44,842 bases of DNA, taken from NCBI GenBank assembly GCA_018901125.1, contig JAHIFE010000127.1:1-44842 (forward strand), written 5' to 3'. The translations under genes and the position numbers were made by a program. The stretch comes from Pseudomonadota bacterium. Lineage in GTDB: Bacteria > Desulfobacterota > Desulfobacteria > Desulfobacterales > RPRI01. The notes beneath the pieces are model-generated. The model worked only from the letters and a program-made list of their open reading frames with translations, was not told where the DNA came from and ran no database searches. Positions 39,739 through 44,661 of this stretch are shown piece after piece (positions within the stretch are counted from its first letter, which is position 1; the number at the start of each line of letters is the position of its first letter).

Positions 39739-40029
39739 TTATAACGTATCATAAGTAGCTTTTGAACAGGGATTTTGAGTAAACAGAAATAAATTTTCAT
39801 ATTCACTTGGGGGTTGATATCCCAATGAAGAATGAAGCCGTTTTTGATTATAAACATCTTGAATAAAATATGGTATTCTTTTGCGGACATCTTCAATGGT
39901 AATATATTCCCATAACCAAATTTCTTCTGATTTTAAGGTTTTAAAAAAGCTTTCAGCATAAGCATTGTCATAGGGATTGCCTTTACGGCTCATGCTGATT
40001 TGTGCGATAGGAGGGACTTCACTTTTTCA
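39739..40029 (-). pseudogene. IS3-family transposase OrfB, C-terminal remnant
   Basis: About 96 codons of an OrfB. In-frame codons before the first ATG read IAQIS, then SRKGNPYDNAYAESFFKTLK, the conserved block carrying the last Glu of the DDE triad. RLHSSLGYQPPSEYE is the usual C-terminal signature. A TGA interrupts the frame just upstream (about 40030) and the two catalytic Asp regions are missing, so the element is dead. It separates the Wzz-like gene from the flippase and records an old insertion/deletion in the cluster. Confidence 0.88.
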
Positions 40030-42476: not shown

Positions 42477-42764
42477 TCAGGGCGTAATTACACTTATCAT
42501 ATTTTTATTAAGATCGAAGATTTTCTGACCGATACCGGGCACTTTCATTATATCTTCCGGTTTTGCGAAAGGACCGTTTTTTTCTCTGTAATCAACTATT
42601 TTTTTAGCGACTTTAGTACCGACCTTCTTAAGCTTTGTAAGCTCTTGAACGGTCGCTTTATTGATGTTAATCTTAACCTCATCTTTTGCAAAGGCAGAAA
42701 TTCCTGAAGCTAAAACAAACGCAATCACAACGCACAAACTAACAAATCGTTTTAAGTTTCTCAT
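42477..42764 (-). CDS. ComEA-like helix-hairpin-helix DNA-binding protein, exported
   Basis: 95 residues. A signal peptide (about residues 1-25, ending ISAFA) precedes a ComEA-type HhH domain: ININKATVQELTKLKKVGTK, then IVDYREKNGPFAKPEDIMKVPGIG. These domains bind DNA without sequence preference; ComEA carries DNA across the periplasm in competent bacteria. Stand-alone short forms are common and not all are competence proteins. AAGGAG lies 7 bases before the ATG. It has its own terminator, so it is probably a single-gene transcript not functionally tied to the glycan cluster. Confidence 0.9.
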   Translation of the reverse strand: MRNLKRFVSLCVVIAFVLASGISAFAKDEVKININKATVQELTKLKKVGTKVAKKIVDYREKNGPFAKPEDIMKVPGIGQKIFDLNKNMISVITP

Positions 42765-43250
42765 GTTTCTTCTCCTTAGTGAAATGTTTATTTGTTATTG
42801 GCAATATAACCAAATACGCCCAACATCGTATAGATTGGATCAATAATTCAAAGGCACGCTTCAGGCTTTTACAGATTAGACCATTAATATTTTGATACTT
42901 TACATAAAGGTCTCTTTTGCCCGATTAATCTCTCGCAGAGTTCTAAGAGCCATATTTTCTGGATTTTATTAATATTCTGGAACTCTGACTTCTGGCATCT
43001 CGGGAAGGTGGTGTCGAATGTTCTTCAACTTTTCTGTAAGTTACTATTATGCTTTATTGAACATATTACAAGCGGCTTGTCAAGCTGCAGTTTGTATTAA
43101 AATTCGAATATTTATAAAAACGGTAGTAATTATTTCTCGCGGACTTGTAAAAAGCAATAATTATCTTGACATTTAAATTTATAATTCTATCTTTTAGAGA
43201 AAATTTAGGTAGATATATCGGCTGATTTAAAAATAATGAGGTAAGCTTTC
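42765..43250. other. 486-base divergent intergenic region
   Basis: It separates the minus-strand HHH gene from the plus-strand DUF1573 gene. The right part holds the promoter at 43166-43193. I see no supported gene, RNA or repeat in the remainder, and no convincing promoter for the HHH gene. Confidence 0.6.
43166..43193 (+). promoter_or_regulatory. Sigma-70-type promoter of the DUF1573 selenoprotein candidate
   Basis: Perfect -35 TTGACA (43166-43171), 16-base spacer, -10 TATCTT (43188-43193). Transcription would start near 43200, about 50 bases before the ATG at 43251, with GAGGT 8 bases before the start codon. Confidence 0.6.
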
Positions 43251-43952
43251 ATGAAACACAAAATAGTCGTTGCCTGTTTTTCTGTTTTTTTATTAATACT
43301 GTCGTATTCGCATTCGCACGGTGACAACGGGCAAGATCAGCCAAATGCCGTTATACCCAATAGCAGTTACGAATTTGATCAAATACCCGAAGGAACCAAA
43401 GTAGTACATGATTTTGTTGTTCAGAACACCGGGAAGGCACCTCTTGAGATTTATCAGGTAATAACAGGCTGAGGGTGCGCCGTTGTTTCTTTTCCGAAAC
43501 ATATCCCTGCCGGAGGCGAGGGAATAATAACAATAAGCATCAAAACAGCTGAATATGGCGGAAAGTCACTTAAAAAAAATATAGTTGTTCATACAAATGA
43601 TTCAAAAAAGCCGAAACTTAATATTGCTATACGCGGGCTTGTAGAAAAAATTGTTGATATCAGACCCAAAGAAGTGATCTTAAGCGGACCCCCGGATAAG
43701 GAATTATCGGTTTCAGTAATTGTTACTCCTGAAGATAAATATCCCTTTAAAATAAAAGAAGTTAAAGCTCAAAGCGGCTATAACATAAGAGTGACGCTTG
43801 AAAAAGACAGCGGATCAAAACCCAATAGATATGTTTTAACCGTTAAAAACACAGCAAAAGCTAAACTTAAATACTTCGATTGGATTATTATCAGAACAGA
43901 TGGCTCAATTAATAACGAAATGAAGATCCATGTGACTGGAAACATATATTGA
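43251..43952 (+). CDS. DUF1573-family exported protein, candidate selenoprotein (in-frame TGA as Sec74)
   Basis: Read through the TGA at 43470-43472, the frame encodes 233 residues with no other interruption. A signal peptide covers about residues 1-23 (FSVFLLILSYSHSHG). The DUF1573 Ig-like domain follows: FDQIPEGTKVVHDFVVQNTG, then KAPLEIYQVITG, then Sec-G-C-A, then VSFPKHIPAGGEG. In this family the same place usually reads S-C-G-C-T, so the TGA replaces the first Cys of the C-x-C pair and leaves Cys76 as partner. A second domain (about 150-233) has DIRPKEVILSGPP. GAGGT precedes the ATG. A nonsense-mutated pseudogene is the alternative, but the exact placement at a redox Cys and the intact downstream frame argue for selenocysteine. 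Confidence 0.82.
43472..43508 (+). promoter_or_regulatory. Candidate SECIS-like hairpin directly after the UGA
   Basis: A 6-bp stem TGTTTC (43484-43489) / GAAACA (43496-43501) closes a six-base loop beginning 17 bases after the UGA. An outer AGGG (43472-43475) / CCCT (43505-43508) pairing would extend it from the UGA itself. The distance suits a bacterial SECIS, but the loop lacks the expected leading G. An alternative hairpin at 43504-43523 (TCCCTGCC / GGC-G-AGGGA) has a GGA loop but lies 39 bases from the UGA. Confidence 0.45.
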
Positions 43953-44013
43953 GATCAAAGGCATAAAGCAGGGGCCGGGGATCAGGAGTCGGCAGGAGCA
44001 AGGCAAGGATAGC

Positions 44014-44029
44014 TCATGAGTTCATGAGT
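44014..44029 (+). repeat. Two tandem copies of TCATGAGT before the HAD gene
   Basis: Exact 8-base tandem repeat in the 91-base spacer between the DUF1573 and HAD genes. Each unit contains the palindrome TCATGA. It may be chance or a small regulator site. Confidence 0.3.
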
Positions 44030-44043
44030 TGATAAGGGAAATT

Positions 44044-44661
44044 ATGAATGATTTTAAAGTAGTTGCTTTCGATTGTGATGGGGTTATGTTTGACTCAGGA
44101 CAAGCCAATATGGATTATTATAACAGCATCCTTAAACATTTAGAAATGCCCCGGATGACGGCAGAGCAGTTTATTTATGCTCATATGCATACGGCGGATG
44201 AAGTACTTGCCAATCTTTTTAGAGATCCTGAAAGTTTTGAGGCTGCCAATTTATTCCGGAAAAAAATGTCATACAAACCATTTTTCAAGAGCATGAAAAT
44301 TGAACCGGATTTGGTAAGCCTGCTTAAAAAGATCAGGCCGAAATATAAAACCGCCATCGCCACCAACAGAACAGATACCATGCAAGGAATTTTATCCGAA
44401 TTCAATCTTGAAGGCTTCTTTGACCTTGTTGTGTGTGCTCTTGATGTAAAGCACTCAAAACCCCATCCGGAATCTCTATTAAAAATTGTTGAATATTTTG
44501 ACGTTAAGCCAACGCAGATTATTTATATAGGGGATTCGGTTGTTGATGAAACTGCTGCAAAAGCTGCTGGTATCCCGCTTGTTTCATACCGGAATAGCAC
44601 ACTTTCTGCTGATTACCACATTTCACACCTGAAAGAGCTTGGAGAAATTCTTCTTGCGTGA
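44044..44661 (+). CDS. HAD-superfamily phosphatase (phosphoglycolate phosphatase-like)
   Basis: 205 residues from the ATG at 44044, which has AAGG 6 bases upstream; a TTG at 44029 would add five residues. Motif I is AFDCDGVMFDSGQ with the nucleophile Asp, motif II is the Thr in AIATNRTDTMQG, Lys is in KHSKPHPES, and motif IV is YIGDSVVDETAAKAAG. An alpha-helical cap lies at about residues 15-80. It follows the DUF1573 gene on the same strand. A phosphoglycolate or small phosphometabolite substrate is likely, but the exact one is unknown. Confidence 0.88.
   Translation: MNDFKVVAFDCDGVMFDSGQANMDYYNSILKHLEMPRMTAEQFIYAHMHTADEVLANLFRDPESFEAANLFRKKMSYKPFFKSMKIEPDLVSLLKKIRPKYKTAIATNRTDTMQGILSEFNLEGFFDLVVCALDVKHSKPHPESLLKIVEYFDVKPTQIIYIGDSVVDETAAKAAGIPLVSYRNSTLSADYHISHLKELGEILLA

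Follow-up and report, generated by a model that had tools for sequence, protein, structure and literature searches.

A predicted OS_HP2/DUF1573 selenoprotein gene in a Desulfobacterales genome and the stem-loops downstream of its in-frame UGA

We analysed a stretch of 44,842 nucleotides (hereafter the window) from a genome of 4.45 Mb in 241 contigs that is 98.4% complete. On the plus strand, a reading frame is open from an ATG at 43251 to a TGA at 43470-43472, and is then open on to a further TGA (43950-43952) that was taken as the real end of the gene. The initial annotation had described a single TGA within an otherwise continuous DUF1573 frame, and we confirmed this in both the sequence and the translation. 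The features of the locus are listed below.

43237..43242, plus strand: likely ribosome-binding site TGAGGT, upstream of the ATG, read from the sequence
43251..43952, plus strand: predicted OS_HP2/DUF1573 selenoprotein gene, 233 amino acids with the UGA read as selenocysteine (Sec), stop codon TGA 43950-43952
43251..43325 (end approximate), plus strand: probable signal peptide with a basic start and the hydrophobic stretch MKHKIVVACFSVFLLILSYS, read from the translation
43359..43637, plus strand: DUF1573 (ASH/PapD-like Ig) domain with the U-G-C motif, from the Pfam match and the structural model; a second Ig-like domain then runs to the C-terminus
43470..43472, plus strand: UGA codon with a predicted selenocysteine (residue 74) that opens the U-G-C motif; TGA in 53 of 66 aligned domains and a Cys codon in the other 13
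43484..43501, plus strand: hairpin SL1, 6-bp stem with core GUUUC/GAAAC, loop UUUUCC, 17 nt from the UGA to the apical loop
43504..43523, plus strand: hairpin SL2, apical loop GGA, 39 nt from the UGA to the apical loop
44029..44661, plus strand: HAD-superfamily phosphatase-like gene, conserved downstream partner, HAD_2 match of 107.8 bits

The read-through product of 233 amino acids matched the Pfam family DUF1573 (PF07610) with an E-value of 2.1e-19 and 69.8 bits, for a cut-off of 26.1. The TGA occupies the first Cys of a C-G-C motif, because the translation around it reads NTGKAPLEIYQVITG-U-GCAVVSF (in a longer reading, ...EIYQVITG-U-GCAVVSFP). The annotation had placed it at the first Cys of S-C-G-C-T; the Cys assignment holds, but the preceding residue is Gly (T-G-U-G-C) and not Ser.

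To assign the protein to a family, we compared it with the NCBIfam model NF041425, named “OS_HP2 family (seleno)protein”, and obtained 139.9 bits, over the curated cut-off of 100. Members of this family carry either Sec (UGA) or Cys at the first position of C-G-C, and the window protein has the UGA there. For the DUF1573 selenoprotein, the source that reviews cite is reportedly a 2007 paper by Zhang and Gladyshev in Nucleic Acids Research on an Olavius symbiont. The tables of prokaryotic selenoproteins in the available excerpts of two reviews (PMC9312934; PMC13188914) list a DUF1573 domain-containing protein, pfam07610, with the motif UGC, both citing Zhang and Gladyshev 2007, and an excerpted table in PMC2398784 gives OS_HP2, pfam07610, with the motif UxC. 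The window protein shares the U-G-C motif listed in these excerpts, and we found no difference that separates it from the family, of which three named relatives come from Desulfobacterales/Desulfobacteraceae metagenome-assembled genomes. The idea that this could be a new or little-described selenoprotein is thus right in its second half only: the family is not new, because NF041425 and the review tables already list a selenoprotein with the UGC motif, and it is little described, no function being stated for the DUF1573/OS_HP2 selenoprotein in the excerpts of PMC9312934, PMC13188914 or PMC2398784. The window gene is a further member of the already described OS_HP2/DUF1573 selenoprotein family, new as a gene only.

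We then searched the source genome for the selenocysteine machinery, as the initial annotation had proposed for selA, selB, selC and selD, and all four were present, each over its family cut-off: a tRNA-Sec with the anticodon tca (UCA) (76.1 bits, gathering threshold 47), SelB (391.7 bits, cut-off 242.25), SelA (599.9 bits, cut-off 267.9) and SelD (384.3 bits, cut-off 125). The SelD gene (L120, G000:C63:3594-4520, minus strand) is itself a selenoprotein gene, with an in-frame TGA at GAG-U-ASKL. This genome has three DUF1573 genes that exceed the Pfam cut-off; in two of them the motif carries a TGA, in the third a Cys. The second TGA paralogue (L003, C97:7438-7734) has the TGA at the same codon (...VKAG-U-GCTAALAS) and scored 80.3 bits on NF041425, under the cut-off of 100, as a more distant relative. 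The third, on contig C13 (L002), is a Cys form, TSCGCTTANYTK. Such Cys members of DUF1573 (PF07610), present in this genome and in the order, share the domain and the C-G-C motif with the window protein; they differ in that the window protein has Sec for the first Cys, and in the two hairpins, which are strong among Sec forms but weak among the 11 Cys forms that we counted.

To detect relatives, we searched a set of 59 genomes comprising the source genome, its genus and its order. NF041425 matched in 52 of them and exceeded its cut-off in 50; the 7 genomes with no match included 3 of the same genus that were 85-87% complete. In total, 64 matches exceeded the cut-off; 51 of these contained one TGA and the other 13 had no TGA. 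For the alignment we retained domains scoring at least 200 bits in a search with our own profile, resulting in 66 distinct domains, namely those 64 and two weaker ones; the 5 regions under 200 bits, out of 71 distinct regions, were excluded, the second TGA paralogue of the source genome among them. Exactly one TGA, at the site of the window's, was present in 53 of the 66 aligned domains, and the remaining 13 had no TGA and a Cys, so that both of the forms to be looked for among homologues according to the initial annotation were recovered. Its argument that a random nonsense mutation would hardly fall on the one redox Cys codon is borne out by the same 53 domains, whose single TGA excludes chance. 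The motif reads U-G-C in 52 of them and U-A-S in one (L105). Over all 71 distinct regions, the site was TGA or Cys in 70 (55 Sec and 15 Cys), and one region without a clear motif (L107) was left out. Two divergent TGA members have an altered partner residue: L105, with U-A-S, has no second Cys, and L108 has U-S-C. A draw of 297 genomes from the phylum gave matches in 119 and over the NF041425 cut-off in 35; the 26 loci retained from it (L122-L147) had TGA at the site in 23 cases and Cys in 3, and the three named Desulfobacterales/Desulfobacteraceae loci had TGA at the site in 3 of 3 (L131, L148 and L149 duplicate earlier loci). In the 59 genomes, which are drafts, SelB was present in 53; a TGA member exceeding the NF041425 cut-off was present in 47, of which 5 gave no SelB match at 1e-60. 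A search of a phage collection at 1e-5 returned no relative.

On a tree of the 66 domains, the Sec/Cys state requires 5 changes, on a topology in which 39 of the 63 inner branches are weak. In one genome (G043), a Sec copy (L079) and a Cys copy (L041) are sisters with an SH-aLRT support of 98, a Sec/Cys exchange perhaps preceded by a duplication. We estimated substitution rates in the part of the gene that follows the TGA, and dN was lower than dS in 6 of the 6 pairs tried: 0.206 versus 0.65 between the window gene and L038 (159 codons), 0.048-0.126 versus 0.396-0.493 in three closer pairs, and 0.219 versus 1.214 and 0.323 versus 1.702 in two wider pairs. Protein-level selection goes on downstream of the TGA.

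We next quantified pairing in the two hairpins across 50 gap-free Sec forms and 11 Cys forms, having dropped the sequences in which the reference positions held indels or different residues (5 of the 55 Sec and 4 of the 15 Cys sequences). The five core pairs of SL1 were paired in 0.908 of cells in the Sec forms, compared to 0.542 (maximum 0.604 of 500 draws) when codons were sampled from elsewhere in these genes and 0.79 when synonymous codons were permuted within columns, with 0 of 1000 permutations reaching the observed value, in controls that treat the sequences without regard to relatedness. When the 3' strand of the seven SL1 pairs was shifted by 1-3 positions, the pairing fell from 0.826 to 0.31-0.40. 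The SL2 pairs, which overlap the codons of the conserved PPGGEG motif, were formed in 0.843 of cells versus 0.581 for codon draws (maximum 0.637 of 500) and 0.829 under column permutation, where 4 of 1000 reached the observed value; SL2 therefore carries a strong codon-choice signal with little covariation. Mean energies in the Sec forms were -7.58 versus -2.09 kcal/mol in the null for SL1 and -10.23 versus -5.37 kcal/mol for SL2. In the 11 Cys forms, SL1 pairing was 0.473 versus 0.387 for codon draws (maximum 0.509) and SL2 pairing 0.649 versus 0.534 (maximum 0.675), with energies of -1.64 versus -0.84 for SL1 and -4.65 versus -4.94 for SL2 (observed versus codon draws); the Cys forms thus have a mild pairing excess inside the range of the draws, and the signal is not wholly absent from them. 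In the window alone, 2.25% of 2000 synonymous versions folded SL1 at least equally well, the 67-nt fold was not unusual against dinucleotide shuffles (z = -0.48), and an Rfam search over 43000-44100 returned no SECIS or other credible match (one match, E = 5.5). Taken over the family, a downstream stem-loop signal is under selection in the Sec forms, well past synonymous controls that ignore relatedness, and is weak in the Cys forms.

The published model of the bacterial SECIS (bSECIS), in the available part of its source, requires a G within the first two loop positions together with a spacing of 16-37 nt, and some elements fail it (PMC13188914). The window resembles it in having a hairpin right after the UGA, in the 17-nt spacing of SL1, which falls within 16-37, and in an SL2 loop that begins with GG; it differs in that no single hairpin of the window satisfies both the loop G and the spacing (SL1 has UUUUCC at 17 nt and SL2 has GGA at 39 nt). 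A G in the first two positions of the SL1 loop was found in 8 of the 50 Sec forms and was missing from 42, the window included. We tentatively propose, as a possibility that we rate somewhat short of even, a two-hairpin bacterial SECIS in which SL1, with no loop G, would fold out the spacer and present the GG-looped SL2 to SelB beyond the accepted distance; the published single-hairpin model would therefore miss it. Among the matches listed in the literature for such a two-hairpin element, available in part, the term bacterial SECIS is absent, which is weak evidence of absence. This RNA signal is the less ordinary part of the finding and is modestly interesting; should a tandem-hairpin signal be proved, it would add to the rules for finding bacterial selenoprotein genes in genomes.

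For structure prediction, we used an alignment (A1) of the window protein with 64 of the 66 domains, leaving out L049 and also L001, the window gene itself. The AlphaFold2 model (65 sequences) has a pLDDT of 94.6 and a pTM of 0.82, with two all-beta domains, and places the U-G-C motif (model residues 53-55) in a turn leading into strand 55-59 of domain 1. The highest Z score (12.6) was to ciliary central-apparatus proteins, with an rmsd of 8-13 over both domains. Domain 1 alone aligned to the Ig domain of VesB with Z 12.1 and an rmsd of 1.8 A over 96 residues, and to HYDIN with Z 10.2 and an rmsd of 3.3 over 103 residues. The model, a confident one, shows two ASH/PapD-like Ig domains. Domain 1 has the fold of those of the VesB Ig domain, HYDIN and CEP192, but shares the fold alone with them, at 9-15% identity, and a common fold does not show function. 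A sequence search of solved structures up to E = 1 gave no relative other than two RNA polymerase chains (E 0.65-0.69).

Two other accounts of the TGA were weighed against selenocysteine insertion. If it were a nonsense mutation or a sequencing error, the gene would be a pseudogene; a mid-gene TGA is formally a stop, and the gene is situated in the last 1.6 kb of its contig. Against this stand the TGA that 53 of the 66 aligned domains share at this site, the dN below dS after it, the full-length two-domain model (pLDDT 94.6) and the presence of the Sec machinery. A sequencing error is untenable because many other genomes have the same TGA, and we rejected both variants, which we hold to be vanishingly improbable, since the TGA recurs at a single codon in many genomes. 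The UGA might instead be decoded otherwise, as Trp through a reassigned code or by general suppression, or might act as a stop that gives a regulated short form, and UGA read-through without a SECIS is known in other systems. However, TGA ends 16 of the 41 ORFs taken as the main ones of the window, and the window gene itself; of 71 distinct regions, 70 have TGA or Cys at the site and none, by eye, has Trp; and the hairpins mark the Sec forms. On these three grounds Trp reassignment and general read-through were rejected, and we consider decoding of these other kinds very improbable.

Selenocysteine decoding is supported by every informative comparative test. Comparison established the machinery, the conservation of position, the Sec/Cys exchange, the selection after the UGA, the hairpins that mark the Sec forms and the confident fold model. 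We are nearly certain that the UGA is decoded as predicted and that the protein belongs to the OS_HP2/DUF1573 family; the original call of a likely selenoprotein is upheld by the machinery, the Cys and TGA homologues, the selection after the TGA and the hairpins of the Sec forms. In the mechanism that we propose, SelB with Sec-tRNA(UCA) would insert selenocysteine at the ribosome that has reached the UGA at 43470, directed by SL1 and SL2 downstream. On the likeliest division of labour, SL2, whose apical loop begins with GG, would bind SelB and SL1 would fold away the extra spacer. Decoding would have to depend on context, because the same gene terminates at an ordinary UGA.

We inspected the genomic neighborhood of the relatives. 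Among loci with at least 700 nt of downstream sequence, a same-strand HAD gene lay within about 620 nt downstream in 44 of 52 Sec forms and 4 of 13 Cys forms, and four Cys rows of the tree share the HAD neighbour with Sec rows. The linkage between DUF1573 and HAD genes is strong. The window's HAD gene was over no equivalog cut-off among the matches listed (25 families). PriA (identified by Pfam) lies upstream of 27 of the 66 domains and is not found in the window. The finding as a whole speaks for the use of selenocysteine by a widespread, functionally undescribed family of Desulfobacterales and relatives, mostly in a conserved gene pair with a HAD phosphatase. Outside this pair, MauE, rhodanese or thioredoxin genes were found near six Sec paralogues, and in a six-row Cys clade that includes the Cys form of the source genome (L002), three members adjoin an IscA/HesB-like or FlpD gene. 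Sec-type DUF1573 paralogues clustered with MauE, rhodanese or thioredoxin genes, named partly by reading, are those at L060, L074, L076, L094 and L096; the L060 cluster also holds an ArsP-type permease (Pfam), and at L094, by reading, one protein resembles a cation-efflux transporter and has a MauE-like part at its end. A literature search found nothing that joins at least three of the terms selenoprotein, MauE, DoxX and rhodanese.

The product is probably exported, as its signal-like start suggests, and its Sec-Gly-Cys would most likely cycle between a selenol/thiol pair and a selenenylsulfide. On the strength of the Sec use and of the paralogues' neighbours, we lean slightly towards a redox role for the U-G-C site of the predicted exported protein. 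Reduction would come from membrane MauE/DoxX-type or thioredoxin partners, perhaps in the paralogues, and any role of the HAD neighbour is one that we infer. Counting against the redox reading, a HAD phosphatase and not a redox gene is the neighbour in the group to which the window gene belongs. A selenoprotein whose U-G-C mainly binds a metal or metalloid, and does not carry out thiol-disulfide exchange, is a live alternative that we consider unlikely: the L060 paralogue cluster has the ArsP-type permease assigned by Pfam, L092 and L094 hold relatives of this permease, and reading alone suggested ArsR-like regulators at L060, L074 and L092 and a cation-efflux protein at L094. These neighbours are, however, those of the paralogues and not of the window's HAD-linked group, and at two of the same loci (L074 and L060) MauE, rhodanese or thioredoxin genes are also present, which speaks for thiol chemistry.

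Elsewhere in the window, we noted a long minus-strand run of genes (152-39613), several members of which look like parts of an O-antigen or exopolysaccharide cluster, including epimerase, glycosyltransferase, asparagine synthase and flippase-like genes named by reading (ten window genes were translated). Beside this polysaccharide-like run lies a short remnant (39739-39993, minus strand) that we take to be transposase-like, with an IS3-type integrase core by reading. Between it and the selenoprotein gene, at 42477-42764 on the minus strand, is a gene for a ComEA-like helix-hairpin-helix protein with a signal-like start (TIGR00426, 70.8 bits, cut-off 53.1).
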